DNA from: Agarophyton chilense
Lineage: Eukaryota > Rhodophyta > Florideophyceae > Gracilariales > Gracilariaceae
Assembly (NCBI GenBank): GCA_030374765.1
Contig: JARGXX010000129.1
Span: forward strand, 868,001 to 932,000
DNA length: 64,000 bases
Direction of reading: 5' to 3'
Positions within the stretch are counted from its first letter, which is position 1; each line of letters starts with the position of its first letter. The position numbers and the translations under genes are program-made. This document shows positions 7,694 through 46,820 of this stretch, piece by piece. The notes under the pieces are model-generated. The model saw nothing but the letters and a program-made list of their open reading frames with translations. It was not told the origin of the DNA and ran no database searches.

Positions 7694-9230
7694 TGTAGGA
7701 CAACGGTTGGAGCGGAGTGTAGCATTCTACTATTTCGGCGTTCCGATGGTTTTTTTGTCGCAAAGTCGCGTTTGGGACTCATTACTGAGTGGCCTGGTCA
7801 GTGCTAGGATAAGAAGCGACACACCGCGTAGGATGCCAGGAGGCAGGGTACATTGTTGGAACACGTGGTATCACGAGTGGAGTGGCTTGCAACGGCGCAT
7901 GTAGTGGCGATACACGTGACTGGTTTTACTACCCTTTGTAGATGTAAGTCCATTAGGGTTTGGCTAAGTGGCTGAAGACTGGGGATTAATATACGTATTA
8001 TTTGGGCACTCACCCTGGCACACAGTATATAGTGTACCAGAGGTGAGCGCCGACTCCAAGTAAAGGAGACAACATGGGCATCATGGCTATTCTGTTCCTC
8101 GCTTAGGATTCCTTAACAGGAGATCCGGACGAGCTATAATAGATAGTCAGCCCCCAACCACTTCACCAGCCGTCTCGTACCTACGTTCCATCAACGTTTT
8201 ACAGTTGCACTGTTCACCCTCGCTGGCGAGTAGTGGCCTTACACCCCACTTCCAGCTCGCTGGTGTTGTAGCTCTACCACCCCTTTTCCTTCGCCGCAAG
8301 CGACCCATCGGCAGTCCGACAGCTGTCGCAGGTGTCTGCTCTCTCCGTTAGAGCGGATACTACACGGAGATACCACGAAGATGTTCGGGATCTTGCTCTC
8401 TTGAGAGACACGCCTCAGGCGGAGGAGACGCGTCCCAGCGGAGCACAGAAACAGAGCAACTCTGGAAAGGCACGACAAAGTCGGGTGTAAGACCGAGGCC
8501 AATCCGGCGGGATATATTTAGAGTGTTTAGGTGAGCACGGCACAGTCCGGTGTGTGACTAATCCTAGGCGGAGCGGTATCACGGCGATTGTCGGGAAAAA
8601 AGCGAGGAAACACTCGTATGAGGTGGACGAGCGAGGTAAGTGAGGCGGCCAATCACGAGAGCCAAAAAGGAGAACAAGAGGAAAACGGGGGCGAAACCCT
8701 ATACAGGGGCGAGACTACGACAAGTGTCGGCGATTAAATATGAACCCACGGTGGTGGTAGCACTCTAGTTGACAGAGGGGTGGATGAACTAACGTGCAAC
8801 CTGCGCTCACGCAGTATGCGGTGAAGACGCGCCGAAGTCGAAAAGTTCAGAGCCAAGACTCCCTCCTTGGTCTCCCCCAAGAGGGTGTTTACTGGGGAGC
8901 AGTGCTCAACCTCCTAAGTAGTGTGGCGCGCGGCCCCTGACATTGGGCGCGCGCCCGAAAAATAGACACTAAATAGCGATAGCGTAGCCAAATAAATACT
9001 AAAAAATACTAAATAATACTAACCATTAGGTAGAACCCGGGCCACGTGTGGCACGCCTCGCACTCTAGCGTCTGCATCCGTGCAATCCACGTGTTCCACC
9101 AGTATGTACTTCCGGTCCTAACCGGCCGTCGGCACGCAATAGCGGTAGAGCTTGTCATAGACCAAGCTAGTCCTCAAGCGAGCGAAATCTATAAGTCCTG
9201 GGAAGAAACCTTGAAGGGCATTTTCCTTCA
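7694..9230 (-). repeat. 3' LTR of element B, interrupted
   Basis: Bases 7694-7717 plus 8370-9230 together (885 bp) align with the 886-bp 5' LTR at 30359-31244. Substitutions are scattered and more frequent than between A's LTRs. The interruption is the solo LTR with its target duplication. Confidence 0.88.
7718..8364 (+). mobile_element. Solo LTR nested in B's 3' LTR
   Basis: A 647-bp sequence starting TGTAGC and ending ATACTACA, flanked on both sides by CGGAG (7713-7717 and 8365-8369). Removing it and one CGGAG copy restores the B LTR sequence. It shares a TATATAGTG..CCAG block (about 8026-8040) with the A LTR, so it comes from a related family. Solo LTRs arise by recombination between the two LTRs of an inserted element. 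Confidence 0.88.
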
Positions 9231-9243
9231 TATCCCCCTCCTT
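9231..9243 (-). other. Polypurine tract of element B
   Basis: Minus strand AAGGAGGGGGATA directly precedes the 3' LTR start TGAAGG. It is nearly the same as A's tract and marks the plus-strand priming site. Confidence 0.75.
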
Positions 9244-9469
9244 AGGTGACGAACTCGCCGTCGAAGTGGCGGGGAGGCAACGGTCCAACCGGCATAAAAG
9301 CGAGCCGTGTAACGCGTCCAGCGACCACTCGACTGTCGAAGGCAGAGCTGCACAACCGAACGACAAACGCACCAACGCGGTAACCACTCCTCGATCTTCG
9401 AGCGCTCTTCCGCATCGTACGCCAACTTCCAGCGAACACATCCCGATACCTCGGCGACCAGTACTCCAG

Positions 9470-9697
9470 ATGAACGGTGGTAACAATCCCCGCCGGGGTT
9501 ACTTCTCCGGTTTCCATTCGGCTCCCCCTCCGCGGAGGAGTGCCTCGTCAACCGCGCCGAGCCGATCCCGGGGTCTCATTGAAGCTTCAAGCCACATCAC
9601 TCCTGCGGAGGACACCTGGCCCAGTTACGACGAACTCGTCGGGTTAAACCCGCGTCAACATGCGGCGATTCTCCGGAGAGCTCCGTGGTTCCGTCCG
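9470..9697 (+). pseudogene. Antisense ORF of element B, N-terminal part
   Basis: Starts at the ATG at 9470 (M-N-G-G-N-N) and is cut at 9697 by element A. It matches the start of A's antisense ORF: both have G-Y-F-S-G...S-A-P-P-P, then a W-P-x-Y-D-x-L-V-G block and A-P-W-F-(R/H)-P. The frame is also open upstream to about 9266. The rest of the ORF resumes at 21469. It runs opposite to B's gag-pol. Confidence 0.78.
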
Positions 9698-10491
9698 TGA
9701 AGTGCAACCCTCGTGAGGGCCGTTTTCCAGGACTTGGTTGTTTTTCCGCCTCGGGCGATACTTGTGAGATCTATGAGTAATACCGCTACTAGCGGGCTGG
9801 CGTAGCCAGGTGTATATGCGTTGTACGCGAAGTGCACCGGCGGCCGTGCGCCGTGGCCCCGATTCGGGTGTGACTTACCCACGTGTAGCACGGGTGGCCC
9901 AGGACAGGTTGGCACAGAATAGCTGGATATTTCTCTATTTATTTAGCTTTATTACACTAGGTTAGGGAGCTCTCTACAGTAGTCTACACTATATAGTGCC
10001 AGGGCGACCTCGCTCTGACACTCAGTAAACCTCCCCAACCAGGGTTCTTGGCTCTAAGTCTTTTTCCGCTTTCGCGAGTCTACCACACTCTACGGAGGTG
10101 AAGCCACGTTACTAACGGTAGACTTATCCACCCTGCGTCAACAGGAGACTCACCGCTGTTAGCGTGTATATCTTTCATACCACTGCCGTGTTCTCGCCCC
10201 AGTATTGGGTTTGCTACATATTTCTTTTGGCTCTCGTGGCCCATGCCCCCGATCGCCCCCACTGGGTGGTCCCCCCTTTATCACTTGCCCACTCCCGTGG
10301 AATACAGCTCATACCTGGTCTGCTCCCTTCTAGCATCCCGCACTCTCCCCGCTCGGCGTGCCGGTGAACCTCGGCCTTACACCCCGACTTAGTCGTGTTC
10401 ACTCCGGAGAGGCTCCGTCGCCGTGCTACCCTCCTTGGAGGAAGACTCGGACATCTTCGTGTGTTTCCGCCGCCCTTGGCGTTGCACTACA
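9698..10491 (+). repeat. 5' LTR of element A
   Basis: 794 bp, TG...CA ends, matching 20675-21468 over its full length. A TATATAGTG block near 9990-10000 is a candidate promoter. Confidence 0.93.
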
Positions 10492-10510: not shown

Positions 10511-10651
10511 AAGGCTAAGCGGACCTGGTTTGGTTGTTTTTCACATTGCTTTGCTGTCTTCTCTAGTCGAGATCTGCTTTCCAATTTCTTGGTTTGGACC
10601 CACTTGGTGGACGCTTTTGTTGTCCTATTCTTAGTGGTCAACGCTACAACC

Positions 10652-12781
10652 ATGTCACGACTACCAACGGAAGCGGAACCCGCGATCACGCGGAGCCGTT
10701 CCGTCAATGACGTGGCGCCTGCGGACCCTGGAAGGGTTCCCCCGCCGTTACCTCAAGCCGCTCCGCAAGGCAAGAGTAAGGGGTCGAACTCCTCCAAGAA
10801 CAACAAGCTACCGCCTAAGGCGTCGAAGAATGGACCCAATTCTGGTGCTGGACCGGCCCCTGCCGTGGATGACCCGGCTCCTGCCGACGAAAAGGCCCAG
10901 AAAAACGAGTTCCACATCGACATAAACTCAAGTGTGAGGCAGCAGATCCGCGTAATGCGGGAAGCGCACAATGCCTTCGTGGAAGAGTTCGAAGCCCTGC
11001 GTTCCAGGTGTGATGGCTCTTCTATGAAGGAAGTGGTTGACGACCTCCGCGTGTTGCGGGCGGACGTCAACACCCTGTTAAAATGTTTTGGTGGTCCCGC
11101 CGCTTACGTGGAAGGTGTCGAGACCCGATTCAATCGTGTTAGCGCCCGTCTCCAGACGTTAGAGCAAACCATCTTGATGGAAGACGTCCCGGAGAAGCCG
11201 GTTGCTGTGTCGCACCAAGCGAAACACGAGAGGAAAAGGGACGATACCCGCCGTCGGCGTGGAAAGCGTGACAGCGATGACTCGGACTCGTCGAACTCCT
11301 CACGGTCGTCGCGTGGCTCTCACCATTCAAATGGGTCGGACTCGTCAGATTCGTCTTCTGACGATGGCCATCGCAGGCGTTCATCCCGTTCTAAACGGTC
11401 GTCTGCCACCCAAGGTGTGATCCGCGCCCGCGAGAAGGGAAGGAAACACTCCGGGTTGAAGGAGCTGAAATGCACCAACCCCCTTTACAAGAAGTTGGTT
11501 TCTTACCGATACTATCGGCTAGAGAACTCCTCTTTGGATCGCACGCCCCGTGGCACGGGTAGCGTGAAGGATTGCATAAATCGTATGCAACTGTCCCTCA
11601 GGAACCAGAACGTTTCTGGAGAAGACCCCATTTTGGTGTTGGATTTCCTTGCGAGGTTCGTCGCCGAAGCGGATATTCTCGGTATGACCGAAGGACAGGC
11701 GTTTATTGCACTCCCGTACTTTATGAAAGGCCTCGCCGAGGATCAATACAACTCTGTAAGAGGTTCGTCTAGAGCCTCCGAAGGAGGGGTAACCTGCTGG
11801 CCAGAAGCAGTACAATACCTCTTGAGGTCTTACGCCACTAATCACGCGATTCAGTCGGCCATTCTCGCTCTTCGCGATACGCGCCAGAAGTCTGGAGAAA
11901 CGGAAACCGAATTCTCGGTGCGCCTGAACAAGGCTTTCCACCGTAGTGGGAACGTACACTCCGCCGGAGAGCGCTGCACCATGTTCATCGATGGACTGAA
12001 CCCCGCTATCCGAACACTCGTGGCCCGTTACCGGGAAGACCGAAGGAAAACCACGTATCTGGAGTTGGTCCAACACGCGCAAGCGGAAGGTGACGCTTTA
12101 AGAGCTCGTGTCCCCGGACACAGGTCGCGAACCGCCAAGGCGTTGGTGATGGAAACGAAGTCGCCATCCCTATCGCTGATTGCGAGTGAGCGCCCCCAAC
12201 AGTAGTACGACAACGTACAGTTCGCCCGAAGCGATATCCATTCGGTCCCGACAACCGAACTACCGTCTACGACGGACGACTCATATGACACGGCCCAGGA
12301 TGGACCCCTGCTGTACGCAGACTCTCCCCGTGTTCACGGACCTCGCATCCCATATTCAAACGGTGCGCTCCGACAGAGTCGCCCTGGATGGAGGGATACC
12401 CGCCAAGCGGTGAAGTTCACGGATGCTCGCTCCGGTTTGCAGCCCTCACGCCCGGGACTCATATGCCACATATGTTACGAACACGGTCACATTTCACCGG
12501 ACTGTATCCTCACCATGAGGGAAGTAGCCCGAGTAATCGGTAGTTATGAGGCGTTGACCCCAGTGGAAAAGCGGATTCTTCCGATGACGTCGTATCTTCG
12601 AGCGAAGATCGATTTTCCACGCAGTATTCCGGAGGCGAAACCGCGCAATGCGTTGCTTTACCCTGCCGAGCAGGCTTCCGACCACCGCTCCGCTCCTTCA
12701 AACCCCGCCGCTGGCGCCCCATTGCTAGTGGTTCAGGATTCTGAGGCCCCGCCCCAGGCGGATGGGACTCAGGAAAACTGA
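10652..12781 (+). pseudogene. gag: Gag of element A, one in-frame stop
   Basis: The ATG at 10652 starts a 517-codon frame ending at TAG 12203-12205; the same frame then continues open to TGA 12779-12781. The N-terminal part is Pro/Ser-rich with a coiled-coil-like stretch, then a Ser/Asp/Arg-rich basic region (about 11250-11420) and a capsid-like domain (about 11460-12120) shared with B and C. The distal part has a zinc knuckle C-H-I-C-x4-H-x4-C at about 12460-12500. The internal stop separates capsid from nucleocapsid; B has a stop within a few codons of the same place. Pol follows in the -1 frame. Confidence 0.85.
12772..12778 (+). promoter_or_regulatory. Candidate -1 frameshift site, gag to pol of element A
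   Basis: GGAAAAC lies directly before the gag TGA, and pol is in the -1 frame. The same heptamer occurs at the gag end of element C, and GAAAAAC in B. A mechanism is inferred; no pseudoknot was modelled. Confidence 0.5.
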
Positions 12782-15700
12782 TTTCGGGAGTCTCCCCTTT
12801 GGGAGAGGCGTCCCCAACAGTGAGGTTGACGACGCCCGAGGCGTCTCCGCCTCGCTCCCCGGTCACAATCCTCATGAGGAAACAGGCCGTCTCAGACGTG
12901 GACTCGGAACACTTTGGTGTTCTACGTCGACCGTGGAAACGTGTTCTTAACCGCCGGTTCCCGGATAGAGTCTTAGTAATGGCCAAGCGCAATTACAAGG
13001 TTTATTCCGACCTTGGCCTTTCTACCCAGTTTATGGTTCGAGTCCTTACTGTTTTGGACACAGGTGCTGGTCCGAATTTCATCGTGGAGTCGCTGCTGCC
13101 CCCGCCCTTGCGGTCTCAGATCCGCCTTGGCGTGGCACCCGACGTCGCGGACGCGAATAACAACCCGTTGTCAACGGTTGGAACCGTCGCTCTCGTCGTT
13201 CGCTTGGGCTCCTTCGTGGTGAAACTCGACTTTATTGTATGCCGGAAATTGACTGCCCCCATCATCTTGGGATGTGACTTCTGTGACAGATTCGTTGACG
13301 CCATAAGGCCCCGCTTAAAGCGTGTTGAGATGGAAGACGGCTCGTCGGTCCCGATTGTCCGTCGTCCGCTGCGGCGTGCCTCCAAGAAGCACGTACCGCT
13401 CCCTGTCGCGCAGGAACCTCCACCCGCTTCTCGGGAGTCTACCAAGCTCCGCGTGGCTGCGTCTATCCGAATCCCGCCAGAGTCCCAAGTATGGGTGCGT
13501 GTCACTTCCCGTCAACACGGTTTACGAGTCATTCAGCCTCTCTCATCTCTGTACGATGGATATCAACTCGCCGTGGCGAATGGAGTCGCGCAGATTGTCC
13601 CAGACAAGCCGTTCACCGTGCTCGTTGCCAATCTGGGGTCAACCCCCCAGTCACTGGTGAAAAACCAAGTTATTGGATCGGTAATGCCTCACCCCACCGC
13701 GATGGTCCCCACTAGGCTGACCGCTGCCGAAGTCCTCGGTCTCGTTCACTCTAAGGAGGGGGAGGAAGCTGCCGTCCAATCACCGAATGATTCGGAATCG
13801 CAACCTGCCGAAACAGAAAAGAAGCCCGTTCCGACGAGTTACGACCGGGTAGACCCCGTGAAAGAACTCGAGGAACTCGACCTCGGTCATGTACCGGAGT
13901 CACACCGTGAAAGTCTGCGTGAGATGTTACGGGAGTTTACCAAAATGTGGGATGGCTCTCTTGGTGAGATAAATACAACGGAACACCGGATAGATTTATT
14001 GCCGAACACCCGACCGGTGGCTCAACACCCTTACAGGGCAGGCCCCAAGGCTCGAGAAGAGGAACAGTTCCAAGTGGACAAAATGCTCCGAGCTGGAGTG
14101 ATCGAACCGGCTCAGTCGCCGTGGGCATCCCCAGTGGTACTGGCTCCGAAACCCGATGGGTCCTGGCGCTTTTGCATCGACTACCGTCGCTTGAATGATG
14201 TTACCGTCAAGGACGTGTATCCGATCCCACGAATGGATGAGTACATCGACTCTCTCGGCACTGCTACCGTGTTCACGGCTTTGGACGCCAATTGGGGATA
14301 TTGGCAAGTTCCCGTTAGGGAAGAGGACCAAGACAAGACTGCGTTTGTCTGTCACTCGGGACTCTACCGTTTCAAACGGATGCCTTTTGGTCTAACAAAT
14401 GCTCCCGCTACCCTTCAGGGTGCTATCGACATTTTGTTGGCCCGCTTTAAGTGGCGTACTTGCCTCGTCTATTTCGACGATATCATTGTATTCTCGAACA
14501 ATCTGGATGACCATCTCACCCAAGTCAGGGACATAATGACCACGCTACGTGACGCTGGAATAACCCTCAAACTGAGGAAATGTGAGTTCTTTACCGATAC
14601 TGTGAAGTATCTCGGGCACATTATCCGTCCTGGACGTGTAATGATCGAGGAAGCTCGAGTGAGGTCCCTTCGCAAGGCGAAAGAACCCGCTCCCCAGACG
14701 GAACCGCGCTCCTTTCTAGGATTGGTCAACGTCTACCGACGGTTTATCCCTAACTTCGCTGACATCGCGGCCCCCTTGAACGCGCTTCTGCGGAAAGGTC
14801 AACCACCTAAACTGGACCCCTTTACGTCCGCCCAGACGGATGCTTTTAACTCCCTTAGGGAGGCTGTCACATCAGCACCGATTCTATCGCTACCGAAACC
14901 CGGACTACCGTTTTCCGTGGACACGGACTCTAGCGACTACCAGGTAGGCTTTGCGCTCTTTCAAACTACTCCCGAAGGAGAACGCACACCCATTGGGTAC
15001 TGGTCACGCTCGCTCAATGTCTACGAGCGGAACTACTCCGTGTCGGAGAAGGAGTGCCTCGCAGTTGTGTGGGCCCTCTCTACACTCCGCCCCTACCTCA
15101 TGGGTGTGCACTTTACCGTTTTCACGGATCACTCGTCCCTACGATGGCTCATGACCATCTCGGAGCCGTCAGGCCATTTAATGCGTTGGAGACTCCGCCT
15201 CGCGGAATATGACTTTGAAGTGATCTACAAGAAGGGCACTCAGAACGCGCAAGCGGACGCGCTCTCGCGTTTACCCACGAATGGGGAAGCTCTAGCCGTC
15301 GATGACGAGGATATACCTTGCTTCGTCGTAGACGATGGAACACCGGGAAACCCGGATTGGTTACACGATAAATGGAACGAAAGCCCGGAATCGGACGATG
15401 ATATTGACGCATTGCTCGTCTCGGACGATTCAAAGAAACCCCCGCCGAGTGATTTTGTGCCTATACCCCCGGAGGAGATGGTCAGAGAACAGCAGGGTGA
15501 CCCCTTCTGTACGAAGATTCGCGCCTGGCTTAATGGCGGTGCACAACTCCCTTTCGAGGTGAACGATCTTGGATACCTCGTCAGGACGGTTCAGTCATCA
15601 CCACAAGTCGTGGTGCCGCATACTCTACAGTCTAGAGTTTTGCATCTATCGCACTATGCGAAACTTGGTGAACACGCCGGTGGACGGAAACTCTACCTCA

Positions 15701-18525
15701 CTTTGCGAAGGAACTTCTACTGGCCCGCCCTGGCGGTGGATTGCTACGCAACGGTGCGGTTTTGTACCGAATGTGCTAAGAATCGGGTGAAACTTCGCAA
15801 GTACTCAACGAAGTTGAAACTATTCCCGGCAGGGGCTCCTCTCGAGTTTGTCACCATTGACTTCCTCGGCGAGCTCCTCACCACACGACGTGGGCATAAG
15901 TTTCTACTCGTTATCACGGATCGTTTCTCATAACTGGTTCGGACCGTACCTTTACGGAAGATATCCGCTTTCACGGTTGCACAAGCATTTGTAACCAATT
16001 GGGTATTCGTCTACGGCCCGCCGGTTAATCTTCTATCCGATAACGGAAAACAGTTTGCATCGCGATTCTTCGAGGACGTGTGCAGGATTCTTGACATCTA
16101 GAACCTGTTCACAACGACCTATCACCCCCAGTTTAATGGGCAAGTGGAGCGGTTTAACCAAACGCTATTAGCGTCTCTCCGTTCTTACGTTGCCGACCAC
16201 CCAAAGACATGGGATTTATATACCGACGCCTTGACGTTCGCGTACAATACGCAGGTACACCGTACTACGGGCTTGACTCCATTCGAACTGGTCTTGTCCC
16301 GCCCTCCGCCCGCTGTCACGTTAGAACCCCAGCCCACGCTGGATGCGTTCCCTTCTGTGAAGGATTATCGCCACAGGTGGAAAGAGTGGCTTACGAAGCT
16401 GATCCCGGTCGCCCGAAGCTCGATGGCTCGTGCCCAAGCCGCTTACAAGCGTGATTTCGACTCTCGTGTACGCGGTAAGGCCCCGCCAATCAAAGCCGGT
16501 GACTTCGTGTTCGTCCGTAAGGAGTACTGGAACCCTGAAAAGGAAAAGAAGCACAAGATTTCTTCCGTCGCGGACGGTCCTTACATGGTCATTTCGGTGA
16601 AAGACGACACCATCGTGGTGGAAATTGTCGACGCTCATGAGCGGATCTCCCGCGACCGCGTTGTACTCTCCCCTCTACCGATGTTGGAAGTAATCGAAAT
16701 GGGTCAACAATCCCTCTCTGAGGATGATGGTGCTCGGCACACAACGGTGGCTCAGCCGACTGCCGTGGTTTCCAGACCTTCTGCGTTACCACACCCTACC
16801 CGGGGACTCTCTGACTTACCGATCTTATCGGACCAAGGCCAGAATGGCCTCTCTTCTCTCACGCCACGGCGCGGTGTCTACCCCCGCCCGTTGGGCGTTT
16901 CAACCACTCCCCATGCCGCTCCGTCTCAGGAGGGGGAGGAGGCTCATAACTCTCGTCGAGAGACGGAAACCGCTTCGTCGCGTCATGACAACCGTGGTGC
17001 ACGGACTCCTGGACACACCAGCAAGAACAACGGTGACCCGGACGTCCCGTCTACCGACGTGCCATCTCCACATTTGCGCGCTACAGCCGTTGCTGAACCC
17101 TCTATCGGAAGCGCCACCGCATCTGCGTCTGATTGCACTCCCCACGGGGACTCTACTCGACAGGACGCACCACGTAGTGGAAACCCCCTCGCCGAAGCGA
17201 AACCGAAATCGTCGCAGGATGCTGTTCGCCCTCGCGATACTGGACCGGCTAGGCCGTCGAGCGTTGACCCGCAGCCCGTGGGTCACGGTTCGTCGACACC
17301 AGCTACGGTGGAAAACTTAGAGAACGCCCTCGCAGGCCCCTCTAGGCCGAATCGATCGGAAGTGGTCCCTCGTACTGTACGGCAGGAGTCACCGGCTAAG
17401 CCGGGCAAGCACACCGTAGCAGACGGGAGATTCACACCCAGCACGCTTGATGCTGGTTCAGAACCCGCGCGAAGTGGCGGACGCACTCCGAGTGTCTCGG
17501 TTGACCCCGACAGCGTTGTCGAAGGCGCACCGGTCACCCCGGAGAATGTGCCCGTCAAGGACGGAAGCACCTCGTCGCCGAGTGAAGTTGAACCCTCGAA
17601 AGGGATAGTTGAGGACGAACTCGCTCCCCGCAGGGGTTCCTCGCCGCGCACTTCGCCGCCCGTTGGTGAGGAAGGCACGGTTGACCCGGAGTTGCACGCC
17701 CGTCGCGGTACTGTGTCGCTTATGCGAGCAGACATACCGGCAGCGCCGTTGCACACGCCCTCACGTGAGGAGGCGGAACGCAGCACTGCGCGGAGTACTC
17801 CCAGCCATCAGCCGGACGTGTCACGGGACCAGACGACACCCGGCTCGGGAGATACGCCAATCAACGCCCAAGGCGGCTCACCCGGCAAGGCACGACGCCC
17901 CGTGATGAAACCGCCTCCCGCGTCAAGTCCAGCACTGTCGCGACGGATTTCACCCCGACGACTCGCGGAACGCGACCGCGAAACCCAGCCTTGGGATGAG
18001 TCCGCGTTCCCCCGAAGGGTAGCCTCTGCACGAGAACTCTCGGAAAGCATTTCGACCCAAAAACTGGGAGAATTGCCCCACGGGAAGGCCTCCGGCCGAA
18101 GCCGTCGAACTGACGCTCTTCGTCATGACGCCTTGGCGGAAGCAACCCGCCAAGCGGCCAAGGCAACCCGGAACCCGGTTCGTTCCCCCACCCAGGGCAT
18201 GGAAAGGCAACGCCAACCCATGGACCCCTCGGGGGAAGGGCACAGTAGCCCACACGCACCCGCGGACGTACACCGGTTTGGTCCGGTGACGCGTACACCG
18301 CAAGGGCGGGAAGTCTACGAGAAGGAGTTCGTGGTCGACCACATAGTGGGGCATTCATACCATCCGGATGGTTATATACAATACCTCGTCCGTTGGTACG
18401 GTTTAGGGCCCGAATGGGATTCGGATGAGCCGATGGAACATCTCCCACGTTCGAAGGTGGTGTCATATCACCGCAGAACGCGGACGGGAATCCCGGCATC
18501 GGTTGTTCAAGCCCAGGTGGGATAA
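12781..18525 (+). pseudogene. pol: Pol of element A: protease, RT, RNase H, integrase, chromodomain, two stops
   Basis: No ATG is needed because the frame is entered from gag. Order: aspartic protease with D-T-G-A at about 13057; RT with Y-F-D-D at 14470-14481; RNase H with S-V-D-T-D and T-D-H-S-S-L-R-W-L; integrase with zinc-binding H/H...C-x2-C and catalytic D, D, E in F-V-T-I-D-F, S-D-N-G-K and Q-V-E-R-F; a long Pro/Ser-rich spacer; then a chromodomain at about 18313-18480 with Y-L-V-R-W-Y-G. In-frame stops TAA 15931-15933 and TAG 16099-16101 break the integrase core, so the copy cannot make an intact integrase. RT-integrase order with a C-terminal chromodomain defines the chromovirus clade. 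Confidence 0.93.
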
Positions 18526-18666: not shown

Positions 18667-20405
18667 TCACAAGGGAAACTCCCCATCGGGATCGCGTGCC
18701 CCGTCACGGGTTCGGCTCACCGCCCCGGGTTGGTTACCTCCCTGGAGGCGGGTGATCAAGGCCTCGCGCATCGCGGCAACATCGCCACTCGCTGCGTTGG
18801 TCCCCAGCCCCACCTGTCGCAGGAACTGGGAGATCACGGCCGCTTGACCCGCCGGAGCGGAGCTCGCATCGCCTGGGGCGGACGCCCCACCACTTGGGAG
18901 ATTCACCGGTGGAACCGGAGGTGGTCCAGCTACCGCGTACTCCGACCCAGCCCCCGCGGGGTTATCCAAACCCGCGTAAGGCGTGGCTGGCGTCCCCGCG
19001 CTAGAGGGACCTCCCGCTTCGGATCCCTCGACCTCCGCCTCGGCGTACGCTTCCCCGTCGTCGGGTTCGTTGTCCACCATTGGATCGTCGCCGTCGTAGA
19101 CGTGGTAATATTCATCCGCGTCCACGAAACCGATGGGATGCCCCTCGGGGATATGGCGTGCTGCAAACCGGAGTTCGTTCGCTTCCTCCGCGGAGATTTC
19201 GTGTCCTTCCCAGGGGTCAAAGTATACGAAATCACCTCCCAAGGGAGTACGCCTTCCCGGTGACAGGTCCTGACCCCGGCTACCCACGGTGCGCCCGCTT
19301 TGTTCAATCGGAACGGCGGTCCAGTCCAACTGGTCGATGTAATCGAGAAGACCCGCCACTTCCCAGGCGTTGGTTACTCCACCAAGTGGGATGCTCAGGT
19401 CCAGGCTGCGAATCGCGGACATCAACCGGAACGGGAGGAACTACAGTCTGTACTGGTCATACACCCCCCAGAGGAGGAACACCGCCGCGCGGACTGCCCA
19501 TTCGGTAATCACCACGGACCACAGTCCGGACTCGGGATCCTCGATGAGGTAAGAACCGTAATACGTGATGACGGGTGGCAGCTCGATGTAACAGCCCCGG
19601 CAGGCCTCGAGGTTCGACCACCACGGTGGAATGAGGACATAGCGACCCCGTCGGTCGGCCACGCGAAGGCGTTCGATCTCCACGTTCTGAGACGGGACCA
19701 AATACCCGAATCGGGATCGTGCTCGACGCTCGAAGCAGATCAGGGCGAGGAAGTTGGCCCGCGCAAGTCGACGCATGTAGCGGAATTCTGCCCGGATAAT
19801 CGGTCGCGTCCAGCACATGGCCTCTTGCCGTGCTATCGGGATGCCTCTCCACAAGAGTGTTTCCAAACCCGCCAGGCGGTCGACGTAACCAATCTCACCT
19901 TGAGTGCGGTAAAGCCGAATGTCGGTGCCGAGACCATCGGGGATGGGATATTCGAAGGAGCCCGGCGAAGCCGTTGATGGCCAAGAGGGACGAAGGCCGC
20001 ATGAGCGGAAGACGAGGTTTCCCTACCCCGGCGCGCCACAGCGTGGACCGGAACCGCTACGCGGCGTCGCCAATCCAACGAAGTTGTCGCCACGGCCGGA
20101 ATATCGCCCGGCAGCATCCCGTTTCCATCGGTGTACATCGCTATGAGCGCTCCGTTTAACACCGCAATCGGGTGGAACCACGGCGCAAGCCGGAGAACGG
20201 ACGCATGATGCCCTGGATGGCGCCCGACAAGCATGTCGTATGGCGGCCACCCTCTCGGGGGGAAAATTCCGTACGGAGCAGCAGCCGCGTTCGCGATAGG
20301 AATCTGCGGCGCAGCCGATGACCCGCTTTGCGGAGGCGGAGCGGACCGGATGCCGGAGAAGTACCCCGCAGGGAGACGGTTGGTTTGATTGTTTTGGTTG
20401 CTCAT
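18667..20405 (-). pseudogene. Antisense ORF of element A, unknown product
   Basis: Lies between the chromodomain and the 3' LTR but on the opposite strand to gag-pol. From ATG 20403-20405 (M-S-N-Q-N-N) it reads about 580 codons, with one frameshift near 19920 and one TAG at 19441-19443. Regions: Pro/Ser/Gly-rich head with G-Y-F-S-G and S-A-P-P-P; a Trp/Arg-rich core with R-P-I-I-R-A-E-F, E-L-P-P-V, Y-L-I-E-D and T-E-W-A-V-R-A-A; then G-D-F-V-Y-F, G-F-V-D-A-D and an acidic, Pro/Ala-rich tail with Q-F-L-R-Q-V-G-L. No signal peptide, transmembrane span or Env-like cleavage site is evident. B encodes a clear homologue and D a distant one. It starts about 270 nt from the 3' LTR, so LTR-driven antisense transcription is possible (inference). 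Function unknown. Confidence 0.8.
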
Positions 20406-20662
20406 CGGTGAGCGAAGAGACCGGATGACCGGAAGAAGAGACCGGCGAAGCGGGAGACGATGCCGAGGAATCGGAGGACTGGCACGCAAGGATGCGGATT
20501 CGGTTGAGATGGAACGTTGAGAACGGTTGTTGCCAGGAGACTGGAGTTTTGCCGCACTGCGTTTCTTGGCACCGGATGAAGTGGATCCCAGCGAGCTGGT
20601 TGCACTCTTATGCATTCGTCTCGGCGCGTCGCCCACCATCGCGGATGTCGTACTCGCGCCTC

Positions 20663-20674: not shown

Positions 20675-21468
20675 TGAAGTGCAACCCTCGCGAGGGCCGT
20701 TTTCCAGGACTTGTTTGTTTTTCCGCCTCGGGCGATACTTGTGAGATCTATGAGTAATACCGCTACTAGCGGGCTGGCGTAGCCAGGTGTATACGCGTTG
20801 TACGCGAAGTGCACCGGCGGCCGTGCGCCGTGGCCCCGATTCGGGTGTGACTTACCCACGTGTAGCACGGGTGGCCCAGGACAGGTTGGCACAGCATAGC
20901 TGGATATTTCTCTATTTATTTAGCTTTATTACACTAGGTTAGGGAGCTCTCTGCAGTAGTCTACACTATATAGTGCCAGGGCGATCTCGCTCTGACACTC
21001 AGTAAACCTCCCCTACCAGGGTTCTTGGCTCTAAGTCTTTTTCCGCTTTCGCGAGTCTTCCACACTCTACGGAGGTGAAGCCGCGTTACTAACCGTAGAC
21101 TTATCCACCCTGTGTCAACAGGAGACTCACCGCTGTTAGCGTGTATATCTTTCATACCACTGCCGTGTTCTCGCCCCAGTATTGGGTTTGATACATATTT
21201 CTTTTGGCTCTCGTGGCCCATGCCCCCGATCGCCCCCACTGGGTGGTCCCCCCTTTATCACTTGCCCACTCCCGTGGAATACAGCTCATACCTGGTCTGC
21301 TCCCTTCTAGCATCCCGCACTCTCCCCGCTCGGCGTGCCGGTGAACCTCTGCCTTACACCCCGACTTAGTCGTGTTCACTCCGGAGAGGCTCCGTCGCCG
21401 TGCTACCCTCCTTGGAGGAAGACTCGGACATCTTCGTGTGTTTCCGCCGCCCTTGGCGTTGCACTACA
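20675..21468 (+). repeat. 3' LTR of element A
   Basis: 794 bp, same length as the 5' LTR, with about 13 single-base differences by eye (roughly 1.6%) and no indels seen. Confidence 0.93.
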
Positions 21469-22859
21469 GTCCGACAGCGGTCTTCGACGAAGAACTCGTG
21501 GCGTCGTATGCTGATGGCAATGCGCGTCTCCCGGGCAAGCTGCCGGCTTTGATCACCACTTCGTGGGACTAGCGACGCCGTGTGGCGGTTCCCATTCACA
21601 TGATTCTACGGCGAAGGCGCGAGTCGGCGGACGAGAAGCATTGTACCTTCGTCCGCATCGGCTACTCACGGATCAACCGGGCAATCTTTCATTACCCCAT
21701 CCCCGACGAATTCGGCTTCGACCTACATATGTACCGGACGCAGGGTGCGATCGGCTATTGTTACCGCCTTGCCGCGTTGGAAACTTACGCATGGCGCCGT
21801 CAACCTCGAGCGCGTCAAGAAGCGATCCGCTGGGTCCGTCCGATCATTCGTGCCGAGTTCCGTCACCTTCGTCTTGAGTCCCGATATCGGTGGTTACAGA
21901 ACTTCATCTGCGAGGAGCATCGGGGCAGATCCCACTTTGGCTTCCTTGTCCCTTATCAGAACACGGAGGTAAACCGGATTAGTTCCTTCTATCAGTTCGG
22001 GCGATACGTTCCCCTGCCTGGGTGGTGGTCCTCCGTCGAGGTGTGCCGGGGATGTTACGTGGAGTTGCCTCCAGTCGTCTCCTACCTGGGCTCGTATCTC
22101 ATCGAGGATCCGCACTCCGGCTTATGGTCCGTAGCCCTAACCGAATGGGCAGTCCGCGCCGCGGCGTACATCTTGTGGGAAGCCTACGACCAGTATCGAC
22201 TGTGGTATCTTCCTCCGCGTTTGCGTGGTTACATCCGGCAGCTGGACCTTCAACTCCCTCTTGGAGGTGTCAATAACGCTGATGAAGCTCAGGACCTCAT
22301 CGACATCATTAGGCGTGTCGACTGGGCTGTCGTGCCTGTCCGGCAGAGCGGCCGTGGTCAAGAAGCAGGTGGGGCTGATCGGTCTCCGGGGCGTCGCACG
22401 CCGTTGGCGGGAGATTTCATCTTCTTTAACCCATGAGTGCAGCAAGAGATCTCCGAGGCGGAGGCGTCGGCACTCCGGATGGCTCCGCGAGGCATACCCT
22501 ACGGGCACCCCGTGGGGTTTGTCAACTCGGATGACTTCTACTACGCCTATGGCGGTGATGATCTCCCGGAGAAGGCGGGCGAATACCGTGGCGACGAGGT
22601 CATGGAAGACGTGGGAGACCCCGATGGTGCCGATAATACGGCGCAGCCGGCGCAGGGAGCGACTCACGCAGGTGCGGTCATCGATCCAGTGGCGGCGGCG
22701 TTGCCGGACGAACCGGAAGTTATCGAGGTTCCCATACGCCCAGAGGCGGTCGTGACCTCCCAGTTCCTTCGGGGTGTCGGACTGAACGCGGCGAGCGGCG
22801 AGCGGCGACATCGGTACGATGAGAGACGCCTTCGTGGCACGCCTGGCCGGCGGGAGTAA
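21469..22859 (+). pseudogene. Antisense ORF of element B, C-terminal part
   Basis: Continues the ORF begun at 9470 after element A. It matches A's antisense ORF through T-A-V-F-D-E-E, R-R-R-V-A-V-P, the R-P-I-I-R-A-E-F and E-L-P-P-V-V-S-Y blocks, T-E-W-A-V-R-A-A, Y-D-Q-Y-R-L and the C-terminal S-Q-F-L-R-G-V-G-L. It has in-frame stops near 21570 (after T-T-S-W-D) and at 22434-22436, and ends at TAA 22857-22859. A's copy reads through both places, so these are lesions specific to B. Confidence 0.82.
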
Positions 22860-23123
22860 CTCCGCTAGCGATTCGGCTGGCGCGCACGGCAATCCGGGCT
22901 CTTCCAACTAATCCTTTGTGATCTTGGTTATTATATCCCGCTGTGCGGTAGTATGTGCAGCAACTTTGAAAATAGTAAACTGCTTGCGTCTATGACGTAT
23001 TTGTTTTCTTTCTTCTTTTCCACTTCTTCTGAGCGTCCTTCTCCAGACCGTCTGTGCATCTTCTCCTTCTTCCAAGGGTCCTTATCCAGATTTTCTGTTC
23101 CTTTATCCCCATCGGGTGTCTTC

Positions 23124-30358: not shown

Positions 30359-31244
30359 TGTAGGACAACGCTTGGAGCGGAGACACCACGAAGATGTTCG
30401 GGATCTTCCTCTCTTGAGTGACACGCCTCAGGCGGAGGAGACGCGTCCCAGCGGAGCACAGAAACAGAGCCACTCTGGAAAGGCACGACGGAGTCGAGTG
30501 TAAGACCGAGGCCATTCTGGCGGGATATACCTAGAGTGTTTAGGTGAGCACGGCACAGTCCGGGGTGTGACCAATCCTATGCGGAGCGGTACCACGACGA
30601 TCGTCGGAAAAGGAGCGAGGAAACACTCGTATGAGGTGGACGAGCGAGGTGAGTGGTGCGGCCACTCACGAGAGGCAAAAAGGGGAACATGAGGAAAACG
30701 GGGGCGAAACCCTATACAGGGGCGAGACTACGACAAGTGTCGGCGTTTAAATATGAACCCATGGTGGTGGTAGCACTCTGGTCGACAGAGGGGTGGATGA
30801 ACTAACGTGCGACGGGCGCTCACGCAGTATGCGGTGAAGACGCGCCGAAGGCGAAAAGTTCAGAGCCAAGACTCCCTCCTTGGTCTCCCAAGAGGGTGTT
30901 TACTGGGGAGCAGTGCTCAACCTCCTAAGTAGTGTGGCGCGCGGCCCCTGACAGTGGGCGCGCGCCCGAAAAATAGACACTAAATAGCGATAGCGTAGCT
31001 AAATAAATACTAAAAAATACTAAATAATACTAACCATTAGGTAGAACCCGGGCCACGTGTGGCACGCCTCGTACTCGAGCGTTGGCATCCGTGCAGTCCA
31101 CGTGTTCCACCAGTGTGACCTTCCGGTCCTAACCGGCCGTCAGCACGAAATAGCGGTATAGCTTGTCATAGCCCAAGCTATTCCTCAAGCGAGCGAAACT
31201 TCTAAGTCCTGCCAAGAAACCCCCTTGAAGGGCATTGTCCTTCA
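30359..31244 (-). repeat. 5' LTR of element B
   Basis: 886 bp. On the minus strand it starts TGAAGGACAATG and ends GTTGTCCTACA. Matches the interrupted 3' LTR at 7694-9230. Confidence 0.9.
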
Positions 31245-32086
31245 GATACGTATCTGGTACCAGTCTTTTTGAGAGAATTTCTGGTGCTCGCTATATGTTT
31301 TTCCTCAATAACTTGCCTTTCTCACTGCTGACGTTGCTTGCTTGCTGACATGATTACGTTTACTCGGTCCTGATTTTATGTGATACATTGGAAACATTAT
31401 GAGAGAAGGACTGAGGTATTTCAAGACTGGATATTTTTTGGACAGTAGCGCATGGACACATTTATATATTGGGCACGAAAGGTAGCTCGAATACTTACTG
31501 CAAAGGAATGGAAGAAGCGGTTATTGAGAGGAGATGCCCGTTTTAGCGTCGTCGTCATTGCAGAGATTTGGTCACAATCGCCGCGTACGTTGCAGCAAGA
31601 TTTGGCGCGAGTGTGGACTGAAGTTGTGAAGTTTATACTGCATATCATTTTGTGGCGTCTATATATAGACGCCACAGAGTGGCATCGAGATAAGATTTGC
31701 CCGCTTGTGTACAGCGTAATAACCCGGTGAAACATGATGGCCCGCTTATTCAGGTGTGAACATGTGCAGCATTACGCGTTTCTTATAATATGTGAGAGCT
31801 GCGCAATGCCGCACTTTTTTGTTGTTATAACTGAGATTGAAGAATTTGAGACGGTCTCTCTTCATATCGGAAGAAGGATTGAAAAAAGGTATATATTAAT
31901 CGGAAGAGACGTGATAGAAGATGAATTTGAAAACTTCTGGAGAGCGCAGCGATTTATGTTATATTGACGTAATCATCAAGGAGCGATGCAGTGCGATCAA
32001 TGTAAACTACGAGACCATTTGGTGCCATTTAAACCTGGGCGGGCCATTTGTTTGTGAGAACCCATTCGAACAGCCCGTGAGACGTA
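31245..32086. other. Intergenic between element B and the Tc1-like transposon
   Basis: No gene supported. Short ORFs overlap on both strands (31421-31735 minus, 31452-31730 plus). Contains a perfect 26-bp palindrome. Confidence 0.4.
31651..31676. repeat. Perfect 26-bp palindrome
   Basis: Each half reads TGTGGCGTCTATA on its own strand, meeting at a TATATA centre with no spacer. Confidence 0.9.
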
Positions 32087-32242: not shown

Positions 32243-33233
32243 TCAGTAGTTTATTTTTGCTCCTTTAGCCTGTATAACACTTTTACAACGCTTTGGCATT
32301 GATTCTATAAAAGGATTGATAGAATTACAGTCAATCTTTTCCCAGCAATCTTTGATACAATTTTTTAGATCAAAAACTGTATCAAATTGCCTTCCTTGCC
32401 CATAAACCATTCGGGCCAACATTCCCCAAATGTTTTCGATAGGGTTGAGGTCAGCAGAGCGCGCAGGCCATTCCATAACCGACATATTTAGACTATTGAA
32501 CCACTGTTTCATAGAATTAGACTTATGCACAGGTGCATTATCTTGCTGAAAAATGAATTCTTCTTCGTGCATACAGTATGCAAAATGTAAAAGATAGTTT
32601 TCTAGAACCTCAGTATTCTTCTCAGAGTTCATTGTAGTTTCAACAAAAAGCAATATCAGTTGCTCCTTTCGTACTTTCGTAGAGATTACAGCCCAAACCG
32701 TTACTGATGCGCCTCCTGAATGCCTGGTCACAAATTCTTTCTTTTCTTTTCGTAGATCATGCCAATACATTTATAGCAATCTGGAACATCAAGATTAAAC
32801 TTTTTTTCGTCGAGAAAGATAACATTATTCCATTCCGTTTTCCAATAAGCCTTTCGAGCACACCAATCAACTCGATTTTTCTTGTGAACATCTTTTAAGA
32901 GAAAATTTTTCCTCATTTTTGTGTACTTGAACAAATGTTGACGGTTGAATTCACGCCATATTGTATATCTTGATAGAGCAAACCATATTGTAGGTCTTGA
33001 TAGAAGAAAATTTAGATTTTTGACAATTTTACCGCAAGATGAAGTGTTTCGGCATAGTTATCTCTTAATTATACGCTTATCGGCTGGGGATAGTGACGTG
33101 ACGTAGGACGGCCGGTTGACCGCTTCGTTGCGTATGTAGCGGGATTTTTGATGAAGTTGCTGATTGTTTTTGGGCTGCGCTTGGGTTTTCGGGCTATATC
33201 TGCTGGAATCATACTCTGACCTACTAATGCCAT
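32243..33233 (-). pseudogene. Tc1-type transposase, frameshifted
   Basis: The likely start is the ATG at 33231-33233. The N-terminal part has a helix-turn-helix-like K-T-I-S-N-F-I-K-N-P and K-R-S-T-G-R-P, as in Tc1 paired-like domains. A middle piece (32728-32934) has F-L-D-E-K-K-F with the first catalytic Asp. The last piece (32243-32770) has Q-Q-D-N-A-P-V-H and D-L-N-P-I-E-N-I-W; 34 residues separate the second Asp from the Glu, the DD34E spacing of Tc1. The pieces are in different frames and a stop follows the N-terminal block, so it is inactive. Confidence 0.85.
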
Positions 33234-34525: not shown

Positions 34526-36358
34526 ATGGCCTTTTCCGTATTGCTTCTTTTTGCTCTCCTCGCCGTAACACAAGCGGCCTTCATAAACCAAACATGGGTC
34601 ATTACGTACAAGACCGTTCTTCCCGACGGGCTAAAGAAATTGGTGCCTGTCGTTAACAATCAGTACCCCGGTCCCACTCTACAGGGCAACGTCAACGACG
34701 TCGTCACAATCACCGTGATAAATCGCCTGCCCACGGAGTCAACCACCATTCATTGGCACGGTATAAAGCAAAGCGGAACACCGTGGAGTGACGGCGTGCC
34801 CGGTATCTCGCAGTGCCCGATTGGACCGGGGGAGACATTCGTGTACAGTTTCGTGCTGGATGCCCCGGGAACTCTGTGGTGGCATTCGCACTCCGGTTTG
34901 CAGAAGAGTTCGCTGTACGGTGCCATCATCGTTGACGGTGATCAAAAGCAAGTCGGACCCTACGAGGACATCGTGTTGCTTCTGAATGATTGGTACCACG
35001 CAAGTGGCGCGGAACAGATTGCAGGTTTGGTTGGTGTGCCCTTCAAATGGGTTGGAGATGCGAATTCACTCCTCTTCAATGGAAAAGGAGATTTCAATTG
35101 CACCGATGCTAATATAGAGTCCGCGAAATGTGACCCTCAGACTGATGAGAAAGGACCTCTTATCATTGATGTGCAGCCATCCACGACGTATCGTTTGCGC
35201 ATCGTCGGCGCTTCTTCTCTTGCTTTCCTCAATTTCAATATCGATGGACATCAACTTCGTATGGTGGAAGCAGAGACCACTCTGTTGCGGCCGTTCAACA
35301 CCAGATTTCTTGATGTGGGCCCTGGTCAATCGTACAGTGCGCTTTTACGAACAAAGTCGCTGCGACAACTGAGGCGAACTAGGAACAACAACGGTGCGTA
35401 ACATTGCTCCATTCCATCTGATAGACGACCAATGCACAAACATCATCATGTGACTGACTAGAGCGATCGTTTTCCTTGCTTAGGCCTCTTCTGGATGCAG
35501 ACCAACATCCGTCACAGAAAAACTGGACCCCAGGGACTGGCCATTCTTCGATACACCACGAACACTGGAGCCAAAGAGCCGCTGAGGAGTCCCCCATCAC
35601 CACCAAAGTACGACAATATCACTTGGTCGCTTATGCATGCCCGGCGCTTCCGTTCACGGCGTGTCATGAAAATTCCACCAGCCAATCGCACCTTCGTGTT
35701 CCTTGGAACCCAAAACAAGCTATCGAATGAGCGTCTCGTCTGGGCCTTGAATAATATCTCATACGTAGACGGACAATCTCCAATTCTTCACTCGATCAAA
35801 CTGGAGGTAGATCGTGACACCAAATCCTATGTGGAACAAACCCGCATTCCCACTCCCTTCGACTACACAAAAAGCCTTTCCAAGGCTGGATTGTCCGAGT
35901 CTGCGAAAGTAGGGACTCAAGTGGTGAAAGTGGCAAAGAACGAAGTGATCGATTGGGTTTTTCAAAACACCGTGTCCTTGTCTGGCGCCGATGAGATACA
36001 TCCATGGCACCTACATTTGCACAACTTTTGGGTGCTAGGGTACGGCGAATACAACACGGCGTGGAATAGAAGCAGCATCGAGACTTACAACTTGAGACGC
36101 CCCGTGTTCAGAAACACAGCCATGTTGTATCCGGGATCATGGACTGTGATGCGAATGAAAGCGGACAATCCGGGTGCCGCTCATTTCCACTGCCACATTC
36201 TTCCTCATTTGGTTATGGGGATGGGATTCGTGGTTCAAATAGGTGAAGCGGCCGACATACCAGACCCACCAGGCGGTACACAGTACTGCGGAACAGTGTC
36301 GAAAATCAGCGCACCGCCCGTGTTGGAGCGTGAGAAAAGAGTTGCTCGAATGAATTGA
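34526..36358 (+). CDS. Secreted multicopper oxidase (laccase/ascorbate oxidase type), one intron
   Basis: Exons 34526-35393 and 35484-36358. The 90-nt intron has AACG|GTGCGTAA and TTGCTTAG|GCC ends and keeps phase, giving about 580 residues, usual for the three-cupredoxin family. Residues 1-17 are a signal peptide. All four copper motifs are present: H-W-H-G and H-S-H-S near the N-terminus, then H-P-W-H-L-H and H-C-H-I-L-P-H-L-V-M near the C-terminus, supplying the type 1 Cys and the trinuclear centre; the Met after the last His is the usual axial ligand. The enzyme oxidises phenolic or similar substrates with reduction of O2 to water (family knowledge); the substrate is unknown. Laccase and ascorbate oxidase cannot be told apart here. 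It looks intact. Confidence 0.9.
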
Positions 36359-41193: not shown

Positions 41194-41217
41194 TCACGAG
41201 CGAGGCGGTAGTGAGCG

Positions 41218-41224
41218 TTTTATA
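41218..41224 (-). promoter_or_regulatory. TATA box of clpB
   Basis: Minus strand TATAAAA within CTATAAAACG. The transcript would start at about the first ATG, which favours initiation at codon 28. Confidence 0.6.
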
Positions 41225-41616
41225 GAGCACGGGACGAGGGACGGGAGGGTGGACATGAAATGACAGGGATGGTTGCGGAAGACGGTATGGGTGGTGCGGC
41301 TAAGTAGGGGGGTGATCTACGTGCGACTGGCGAAGAGGGAGATAGCGGGCGGATTGGCACGGCGCATCAGCAGATGGTTCCAGTGCAATCCAGATTTTGC
41401 AAGATGCAACGCGTGTAACAGTCATGAGGTGCGCTCAAGTTTACAAAAAAAAAAAAAGTGTGTCAGTCGCAAGATATCAAGGAGGTTACAGAATGGTTTT
41501 AGGGTTTGTGACGCGTCAACGTTTACGCGTGTTGCGTCGCAAGCGAAGGAGAGAACAAACTCAAGTCAATGCGATGGGGAGTTGTTGGTCAGCGACGTGA
41601 GCAGCGCGGAGAGCCG
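41225..41616. other. Intergenic between clpB and the Myb-like gene
   Basis: Short, with an A tract near 41445. No gene seen. Confidence 0.4.
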
Positions 41617-42771
41617 CTACCGATAAAGCGCGGCGTCGCGGCGCTCAGGCTGATGCATGTGAAGACGCTTGAGCTCGGCGGCGTTGCGCTGCTGCTCGAC
41701 GCGGAGGAGGTGCGTCTCCATTTCGAAGCGGCGGCGCTTCTCCTGCTGCTCAGCGTGGAGGCGGCGCAGCTCCAGCTCCAGGCGCAGCCGCTCCGCGTGG
41801 TGCGTGTTGCAGTCGATGCGCTGCGCGAGCGTCGCTCGCGGGATGGTGGCGTGAGAGCTGGTGGCTTGCGAGCTGGTGGCTTGCGAGCTGATGGCTTGCG
41901 AGCTGGTGGCTTGCGAGCTGATGGCTTGCGAGCTGGTGGCTTGCGAGCTGGTGGCTTGCGAGCTGATGGCTTGCGAGCTGATGGCTTGCGAGCTGATGGC
42001 TTGCGAGCTGGTGGCTTGCGGGCTGGTGGTGTACAAGTGCGCGTATTGCGAGTGGACGGCGTTTCTAGTAAAGTCGGCGGTGGTTGCGCAGTAGGCAGTG
42101 TAGCACGAGAGGTGCGGCTGTAGCTGCGGTGGGGGTTGCGGTTGCGGCATCGGCAGCATCGGCGGAATTGGCGACAGGGACTGCCGCAGCTGTTGCGGCA
42201 ACGGCATCGGCATCGACATTGGCATCGGCATCGACGTGGGATCGGAGCAGAGGGGCAGCGGGGCACGCGATCGCGCGGCAGGGCGGCGACAGGCGCGGCG
42301 GCATGCGCGCACGTCGGCAGCAACGGCGCGAAGCAAATGCAGACGCTCGCGCGCCATGGGATCGCGCGGCACTTGTATCGCGTCAGCAGCGACACCACGC
42401 GCGTCGTAGCGTTTCAACAGATGACGAAAGCGGTCCCACACGGTCTTTGCGGTGGGTCGCGTGCCCGCAGCAGCATCGGAAAAGACGCCCGTAGCAAACA
42501 GTCGCACCGTGGCAGCCGTGAAGCGACGCTGCGCATGACCGTGCGGCGCGACGTGCGCGCGGATCGCCGCAACGGCGCGAAGCAGCGCTACGTCGTGCGC
42601 GGGCTTGAAGCGGAAGCGACGGCGCCGTCGCGACGGCGATGGGGACGGAGGTGGAGAGGGCATCGGTAATAGCGAAGGCATCGGCGGCAGCAGAGGCAAC
42701 GGCGGCAGCGCGCGTCGTCGCAGTGGGCGCTCATCGCCGCCGCGGCCGCTGACGGAGCTCCCGCGACGCAT
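41617..42771 (-). CDS. Myb/SANT (trihelix)-like protein with repeat tract
   Basis: 384 codons from ATG 42769-42771, no intron, very GC-rich. After a Pro/Arg-rich head with R-R-R-R-R-F-R-F-K there is a helical domain (about residues 60-140) with H-D-V-A-L-L-R-A-V and K-T-V-W-D-R-F-R-H-L-L-K-R-Y, resembling Myb/SANT or trihelix DNA-binding domains with a conserved late Trp. Next come Pro/Met/Gln-rich stretches, a run of five-residue S-Q-A-(I/T)-S repeats coded by a 15-bp minisatellite, and a Glu/Arg-rich coiled coil (R-L-R-L-E-L-E-L-R-R-L). It fits a nuclear DNA-binding regulator. The domain call is from pattern only. Confidence 0.6.
   Translation of the reverse strand: MRRGSSVSGRGGDERPLRRRALPPLPLLPPMPSLLPMPSPPPSPSPSRRRRRFRFKPAHDVALLRAVAAIRAHVAPHGHAQRRFTAATVRLFATGVFSDAAAGTRPTAKTVWDRFRHLLKRYDARGVAADAIQVPRDPMARERLHLLRAVAADVRACRRACRRPAARSRAPLPLCSDPTSMPMPMSMPMPLPQQLRQSLSPIPPMLPMPQPQPPPQLQPHLSCYTAYCATTADFTRNAVHSQYAHLYTTSPQATSSQAISSQAISSQAISSQATSSQATSSQAISSQATSSQAISSQATSSQATSSHATIPRATLAQRIDCNTHHAERLRLELELRRLHAEQQEKRRRFEMETHLLRVEQQRNAAELKRLHMHQPERRDAALYR
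41846..42025. repeat. 15-bp coding minisatellite, 12 units
   Basis: Unit (G/A)TGGCTTGCGAGCTG repeated 12 times in tandem with no indels. The main variation is G or A at the first base, giving Thr or Ile in the protein. Only the first and last units have other changes. Confidence 0.95.
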
Positions 42772-46538: not shown

Positions 46539-46820
46539 GGGACTACGGAGAATCTACATGCTGTCGTGAAAGTTTGAAAAATGGAGGAGACCCTCACGTA
46601 ATTCTGGGCCAGATCCTCACCCCGGTTCACGTGAGGATCCTCAAGATTCTCAGCTCCCATTGGCAAGTTCAGAATCTATCACGCTTTGTGACCTGCTCTG
46701 TGACAGATCCTGCGCTTGTGCTTTCGTCTGAACTAGTCCCTCATCAAGGCACAAGTGTGCAGCAATCAGCTCAGACCATCCTCGCTTTTTATTAGACTAG
46801 AGCCGATCGGATCTGCATTC
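46539..46820 (+). repeat. Left terminal inverted repeat of the MULE
   Basis: 282 bp, inverse of 59063-59321. It is longer by about 23 bp because of an insertion near 46785-46802. Confidence 0.88.

Follow-up and report, generated by a model that had tools for sequence, protein, structure and literature searches.

Antisense open reading frames located between pol and the 3′ LTR are known from plant Ty3/gypsy elements, e.g. Grande (gene23), RIRE2, Retand and PvRetro13. Passages in the literature describe these frames as present in many copies and conserved at the protein level, and call their function unknown (PMC7264820; PMC11963269). The antisense protein of Grande is described as nuclear in a passage of PMC7264820. 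The same source mentions Boty of Botrytis and Sclerotinia, a fungal LTR element with an antisense open reading frame, and an antisense promoter in the 3′ LTR of HTLV (PMC7264820).

In the open-access literature a search that combined antisense open reading frame and chromodomain found the Retand paper only, and searches for algal cases found no element with an antisense open reading frame. Term searches of PMC3248453, on fungal LTR elements, and of PMC6317226, a survey of plant LTR elements, gave no antisense passage. The layout of the locus described here is known, i.e. from Grande and Retand in plants and Boty in fungi; the protein, the host group and the scarcity of lysine in the protein (a lysine desert) look new.

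Elements in the window

The window, i.e. the whole stretch of 64,000 nt of Agarophyton chilense DNA that was analyzed, contains element A on the plus strand inside element B, which is on the minus strand. The insertion point is the antisense open reading frame of B, and a 5-bp target duplication, GTCCG, flanks the insertion. The 5′ LTR of A (positions 9698–10491, plus) is 98.4% identical to its 3′ LTR (20675–21468, plus). The gag region of A is at positions 10589–12205 (plus) and shows a weak Retrotrans_gag match (E 2e-4, below the cut-off for that family). It is followed by the pol sequence for reverse transcriptase (RT), RNase H and the integrase zinc-binding domain at 12799–15933 (plus), and then by the C-terminal part of pol with the chromodomain at 16144–18525 (plus; Chromo E 4e-5, just below the cut-off). 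Element B is bounded by a 3′ LTR at 8365–9233 and a 5′ LTR at 30378–31247 (both minus), which are 92.9% identical.

Pieces of the pol of element C occupy positions 48469–53523 (plus). Element D is on the minus strand and runs past the end of the window; its 3′ LTR is at 60480–61688 (minus), where the inner edge is an estimate based on the common end of three genome matches. C and D represent a second family. The RT of C is 86% identical to that of one D copy, and the identity of C or D to A, B or the lineages E1 and E2 (see below) is 53–64%.

The window also displays host-type genes, which are a multicopper oxidase in two pieces (34526–36358, plus), a ClpB-type ATPase in a single open reading frame (38266–41193, minus) and a Sulfotransfer_2 protein (43850–44959, minus). 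A DDE_3 endonuclease match at 32243–32770 (minus) is probably the remnant of a DNA transposon. Positions 41785–42069 consist of a tandem array of a 15-base unit with about 13 overlapping register copies, and an inverted pair of 243-base copies, 96% alike, is found at 46539–46781 and 59079–59321.

Antisense open reading frames in the window

In A and B of the window an open reading frame that runs antisense to gag-pol is situated between pol and the 3′ LTR. In A it is at positions 18667–20639 (minus) and starts with the ATG at 20639. The frame is lost near 19960 and again near 18730 and meets an in-frame TAG at 19441, which leaves pieces of 268, 141 and 252 codons. Intact-type copies end at a point equivalent to about position 18704 in A, and position 18667 belongs to a shifted frame; the bounds first assigned to this open reading frame, 18667–20405, are thus displaced at both ends.

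The antisense open reading frame of B is severed by the insertion of A. Its N-terminal part is at positions 9266–9697 (plus), where the start codon reads GTG, and the remainder is at 21469–22890 (plus), with stop codons and a frame change near its end. The D frame, at 61806–63961 (plus), is also broken in the window, and in C there is a C-terminal fragment at about 54262–54575 (minus) that adjoins the 3′ LTR of that element. The original prediction was that A, B and D each carry a long antisense open reading frame next to the 3′ LTR. A homologous frame is indeed present in all three; however every copy in the window is broken.

The proposed homology of A and B at the protein level is borne out by tblastn, with 51% identity over 393 aa (E about 1e-121). 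A and D display 27% identity over 166 aa (E 9e-7). C was also predicted to retain the C-terminal end of the frame. The protein match of this fragment is weak and C-terminal (E 0.039, tblastn), however its identity is secure because a 119-nt stretch of its DNA shows 93% identity to D.

Copies across the genome

The assembly to which the window belongs (79.76 Mb, 135 contigs) was searched, and five lineages are considered here: A, B, D, E1 and E2. The antisense open reading frame is multicopy. The B query gave at least 137 matches in the genome, the A query at least 151, other lineages among them, and the D query at least 150, some of them partial copies. The A query also revealed lineages with an identity of about 50%, and two of these were named E1 and E2. 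The 105 matches listed for the E2 query are 7 E2 and 98 E1 copies; by hand count, three of the former and 68 of the latter among these listed matches have no stop codon in the matched stretch, which is about 390 codons for E1.

Frames uninterrupted from the first ATG were counted in loci that are best-scoring or hand-picked copies and do not represent a random sample. They were found in 12 of 30 loci in A (645–659 codons), 3 of 8 in B (592–650 codons) and 3 of 30 in D (801–821 codons). Nine loci fetched from the further lineages comprise four open frames (E2, 614 codons; E1, 591–597 codons) and five broken ones. In a full-length D search, 4 of the 55 copies listed are without a stop. The typical open length is about 590–660 codons in A, B, E1 and E2 and about 820 in D. 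The A, B, E1 and E2 proteins have a mutual identity of 45–54% and are 20–27% identical to D. A chromodomain is present beyond the antisense stop codon in 9 of 14 loci checked, and two of the other five had less than 300 nt of flanking sequence.

Three equal-scoring E1 copies (G000:C68:3138457, 3147654 and 3156851) are spaced at regular 9197-base steps, which suggests a tandem amplification or an assembly effect. Relatives of the antisense protein were not found in prokaryote genomes or in IMG/VR. An RT query of IMG/VR was likewise empty, and the absence from that database is therefore uninformative.

Selection on the antisense frame

A comparison of dN/dS among copies had been suggested with the original prediction, and it gives values of about 0.2 between lineages. 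The pairwise NG86 medians are 0.23 for A–B (42 pairs), 0.20 for A–E1 (42 pairs), 0.18 for A–E2 (14 pairs), 0.19 for B–E1 (9 pairs), 0.26 for E1–E2 (3 pairs) and 0.45 for D–E1 (18 pairs). At the median the synonymous divergence is beyond computation for B–E2, A–D, B–D and D–E2, and most comparisons with D are saturated. Medians within families are higher, i.e. 0.78 in A (91 pairs), 0.53 in B (3 pairs), 0.56 in D (15 pairs) and 0.70 in E1 (3 pairs). This is the pattern expected when copies decay after insertion and the active lineages are constrained.

Changes within families were split into private ones (found in one copy only) and shared ones (found in two or more), using 30 copies of A, 29 of D and 7 of B, with one near-identical copy dropped in each of D and B. 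The pN/pS of private changes is 0.90 in A, 1.05 in D and 0.88 in B, and that of shared changes is 0.62, 0.57 and 0.52, respectively. The contrast has a Fisher p of 0.047 in A, 7e-5 in D and 0.07 in B, the last of which is not significant. Within families, private changes look near neutral and shared changes look constrained.

A codon model gives an omega of 0.225 with a set of eight sequences and 0.079 with a set of four. For the latter set the log-likelihood is −7174.4 with omega free and falls to −7492.0 when omega is set to 1 and kappa to 2; fixing omega at 1 thus costs 318 log-likelihood units. As yardsticks, gag-pol of A against B shows a dN/dS of 0.30 over 2011 codons and RT shows 0.04–0.08 in the four computable pairs. 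As these values are lower or similar, the antisense open reading frame is not exceptionally constrained.

All six frames were compared in eight pairs. The sole stop-free frame is the antisense one, and all others, the sense frames included, have 3–28 stops per sequence. The mirror frame has a dN/dS of 0.38–0.50 but 12–28 stops; its values are low because it shares its third codon positions with the coding frame. The remaining four frames have a dN/dS of 0.98–1.68. The antisense frame is multicopy and conserved, and purifying selection acted on it during the active life of the elements; there is little doubt that it represents a selected protein-coding gene.

Age and descent

A profile of the A/B/E proteins matches a profile of D with a probability of 95.7% (E 9e-9) over 222 columns. 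From this match the antisense open reading frame probably existed already when the two families split, barring an exchange between them. The earlier view that the frame predates the split is upheld to that extent. The view that D shares only ordered blocks was too narrow, as the profile match covers more than blocks.

The median dS of the antisense frame among A, B, E1 and E2 is 1.5–2.7 where computable, and that of RT is 1.6–2.5 where computable; both are near saturation. The similarity of the two favors inheritance of the antisense frame together with pol. Trees of the antisense and RT sequences agree in the large groups and differ in how A, B, E1 and E2 are arranged. The antisense tree places B with E (support 70), and the RT tree places A with B (support 96) and has one node at 41.

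Start of the antisense transcript

The antisense start codon is close to the edge of the 3′ LTR, at a distance of 35 nt in A, 32 nt in B and 47 nt in E1, where the edge was placed by likeness to A. A polypurine tract is recognizable in this interval in all three. In D the gap is about 117 nt. A promoter outside the 3′ LTR would have hardly any space within a leader of 32–47 nt, and antisense transcription is likely to start inside the LTR, judging from the anatomy of the elements. TATA-like words in the antisense direction are found in the LTR of A only, with none in the LTRs of B or D.

A small inverted repeat was seen by eye just inside the LTR edge (20675–20715 in A, and at the same place in B and E1). 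The layout is common to the three but the letters differ, and the repeat would fall in the leader of the antisense mRNA.

The host genome displays four Piwi-domain (Argonaute) matches and one RdRP match, which is in two pieces. These matches suggest that RNA silencing is present in the host. Contig C39 shows a phycobilisome gene cluster at 41200–42206, 85377–99919 and 224129–227691, and one of its gene pairs occurs in two copies, near 38 kb and near 224 kb. This contig is probably the plastid genome of a red alga and indicates a red algal host, barring a contaminant contig.

The antisense protein and its possible function

Single representatives of A, B, E1 and E2 have a basic N-terminal tail rich in Ser and Pro (pI 11.1–12.0), a core of about 390 residues with 12–13% Arg and 3–4% Trp, and an acidic tail (pI 4.1–4.2) that holds a conserved C-terminal block. 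D has a basic C-terminal region in place of the acidic tail. It was noted at the outset that no shared domain could be recognized, and the searches are in line with this. Pfam gave no match in 21 members at E ≤ 1, nor in five at E ≤ 10, and with no match to NCBIfam either, a known family of these two collections is ruled out. PHROGs gave two matches only (E 0.19 and 0.24), and a PDB sequence search gave E-values of 0.72 and 0.84 at best. A derivative of gag is ruled out by an hhalign probability of 1.7%. Structure prediction is of low confidence, with a mean pLDDT of 28.0 for the full protein and 36.4 for the core.

The best explanation is that chromodomain retrotransposons carry an accessory protein gene arranged tail to tail with gag-pol. 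Its antisense mRNA would begin within the 3′ LTR, because the start codon in A, B and E1 almost adjoins the LTR edge. The product may be a nuclear protein, as its basic tail, Arg/Trp-rich core and, in A/B/E, acidic tail would suggest, and it would regulate the element. Alternatively, it may shield the element from host silencing; this is plausible because convergent transcription and the host Argonautes give a reason for it. These last steps are less sure than the first, and the probability of the whole chain is roughly 0.4. No domain match in the Pfam, NCBIfam, PHROGs or PDB searches supports a nuclear or silencing role, and such a role, taken by itself, is put forward tentatively, at somewhat less than even odds. 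The antisense open reading frame would then encode an accessory protein kept by selection, which perhaps acts in the nucleus as a regulator or against silencing and which probably benefits the elements within their host.

A selected antisense protein could instead have a structural, particle or env-like role, i.e. in assembly, entry or movement, and not be nuclear. The open reading frame is element-linked, conserved and long, and the D protein has a fairly hydrophobic stretch, with a 19-residue hydropathy maximum of 2.09. However the maxima in A, B, E1 and E2 are 1.17–1.74, and there is no match to gag or to any Pfam family. Such a role is unlikely, although it is the strongest of the alternatives to an accessory protein that acts in the nucleus.

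Somewhat less probable is the capture of a host gene, on one occasion and in antisense orientation, that the elements have kept since. The lack of a relative among known transposon domains is consistent with this, however all of the top-scoring matches listed are element copies and none is a non-element copy, which is a weak test. In addition, the origin of the gene and its present function are separate questions.

The amino acid composition raises a further alternative. Lysine is 0.2–0.8% in eight A/B/E proteins, where about 2% is expected from base composition, as against 3.4–5.2% in the gag and pol of A and the integrase of B. Arg stays at about 10–11% in the antisense proteins of A, B, E1 and E2. 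At their longest, the stretches without lysine measure 193–614 residues in 19 A/B/E proteins and 123–126 residues in three D proteins. The lysine content of three D proteins is 1.5–1.8%, compared to about 2.1% expected. AAR triplets in A, B and E number 5–7 per thousand in the coding frame and 9–27 in the two other frames of the same strand, and in D there is no depletion in the coding frame. The confinement of the A/B/E depletion to the coding frame points to selection that acted on the protein and not on the DNA, and the scarcity of lysine in these lineages apparently has this cause.

Between lineages, 3 of 258 Arg differences are Arg/Lys exchanges, compared to 19 of 63 in RT; these counts are from six pairs in both directions and are non-independent. 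Among the amino acid changes within A, lysine is the new residue in 20 of the 382 private ones and in 4 of the 131 shared ones. In B the corresponding counts are 10 of 345 (private) and 2 of 59 (shared); in D they are 13 of 409 (private) and 12 of 224 (shared). Shared variants within families thus show no clear purge of lysine.

Lysine deserts are described as enriched in proteins of the ubiquitin pathway and as occurring in some viral proteins in a passage of PMC10169902. A lysine-poor adaptor would engage the host ubiquitin system, remove a restricting host factor and escape its own modification. The low lysine content, the depletion of AAR triplets in the coding frame only and the rarity of Arg-to-Lys changes all fit this model. 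Several points weigh against it, however. D is less depleted of lysine relative to its composition than A/B/E, new lysines appear in single copies with no clear avoidance among shared variants, and the Pfam search gave no ubiquitin-related domain. In addition, most lysine-desert proteins are extracellular or at the plasma membrane according to the source cited (PMC10169902). The adaptor model is improbable, a little more so than the capture of a host gene.

Lentiviral accessory proteins engage the host ubiquitin system. A more elaborate proposal is that the near-lysine-free, LTR-driven antisense product works on this system, without being destroyed by it, against the silencing machinery that convergent transcription would trigger in its absence. 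This is slightly more doubtful than the adaptor model itself; if true, the protein would be a retrotransposon counterpart of the lentiviral accessory proteins.

The antisense transcript itself might be what matters, as a non-coding regulator or a source of dsRNA, and antisense non-coding roles are discussed for other elements in a passage of PMC7264820. However the constraint is at amino-acid-changing sites of one frame, which is the sole open frame, and makes this highly improbable. Least probable of all is an open reading frame due to chance or composition, or the shadow of a sense gene, as long sense-strand frames do overlap it (e.g. 411–417 codons in two E1 copies) but the stops in the other frames, the dN/dS values and the codon model nearly refute it.

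Comparison with known systems

The accessory gene proposed here is found in five diverged lineages of one genome under strong selection at the protein level, and E1 is both numerous and largely open. Its odd composition suggests concrete tests. It offers a tractable case for asking what antisense genes do.

With regard to lysine-desert proteins such as San1, Slx5, others of the ubiquitin pathway and some viral proteins, the antisense protein is alike in having long lysine-free stretches across diverged lineages. The likeness to San1 and Slx5 is compositional only, and no homology is claimed. HBZ of HTLV is comparable in the putative transcription from the 3′ LTR towards gag-pol. However HBZ has a bZIP domain, where Pfam shows no bZIP or other domain match in the antisense protein, and HBZ is much shorter than the proteins of A, B, D, E1 and E2. 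Boty, which is likened here from its description only, also has an antisense open reading frame between pol and the 3′ LTR and is an example from outside the plants.

The closest systems are Grande, RIRE2, Retand and PvRetro13, which, as described in the passages cited above, are alike in the position between pol and the 3′ LTR, the antisense orientation, the many copies and the conserved protein. The Retand protein displays TRP28 (PF04195), whereas the proteins here have no Pfam match, assuming that PF04195 was in the set searched. For the Grande gene a separate upstream promoter is described, whereas the start codon here abuts the LTR. The plant cases differ further in that the host here is a red alga and the A/B/E proteins are lysine deserts. 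Retand is described as belonging to a non-chromovirus lineage, whereas the open reading frame reported here is carried by chromodomain elements. The antisense-gene plan would thus extend to chromodomain elements and probably to the red algae.
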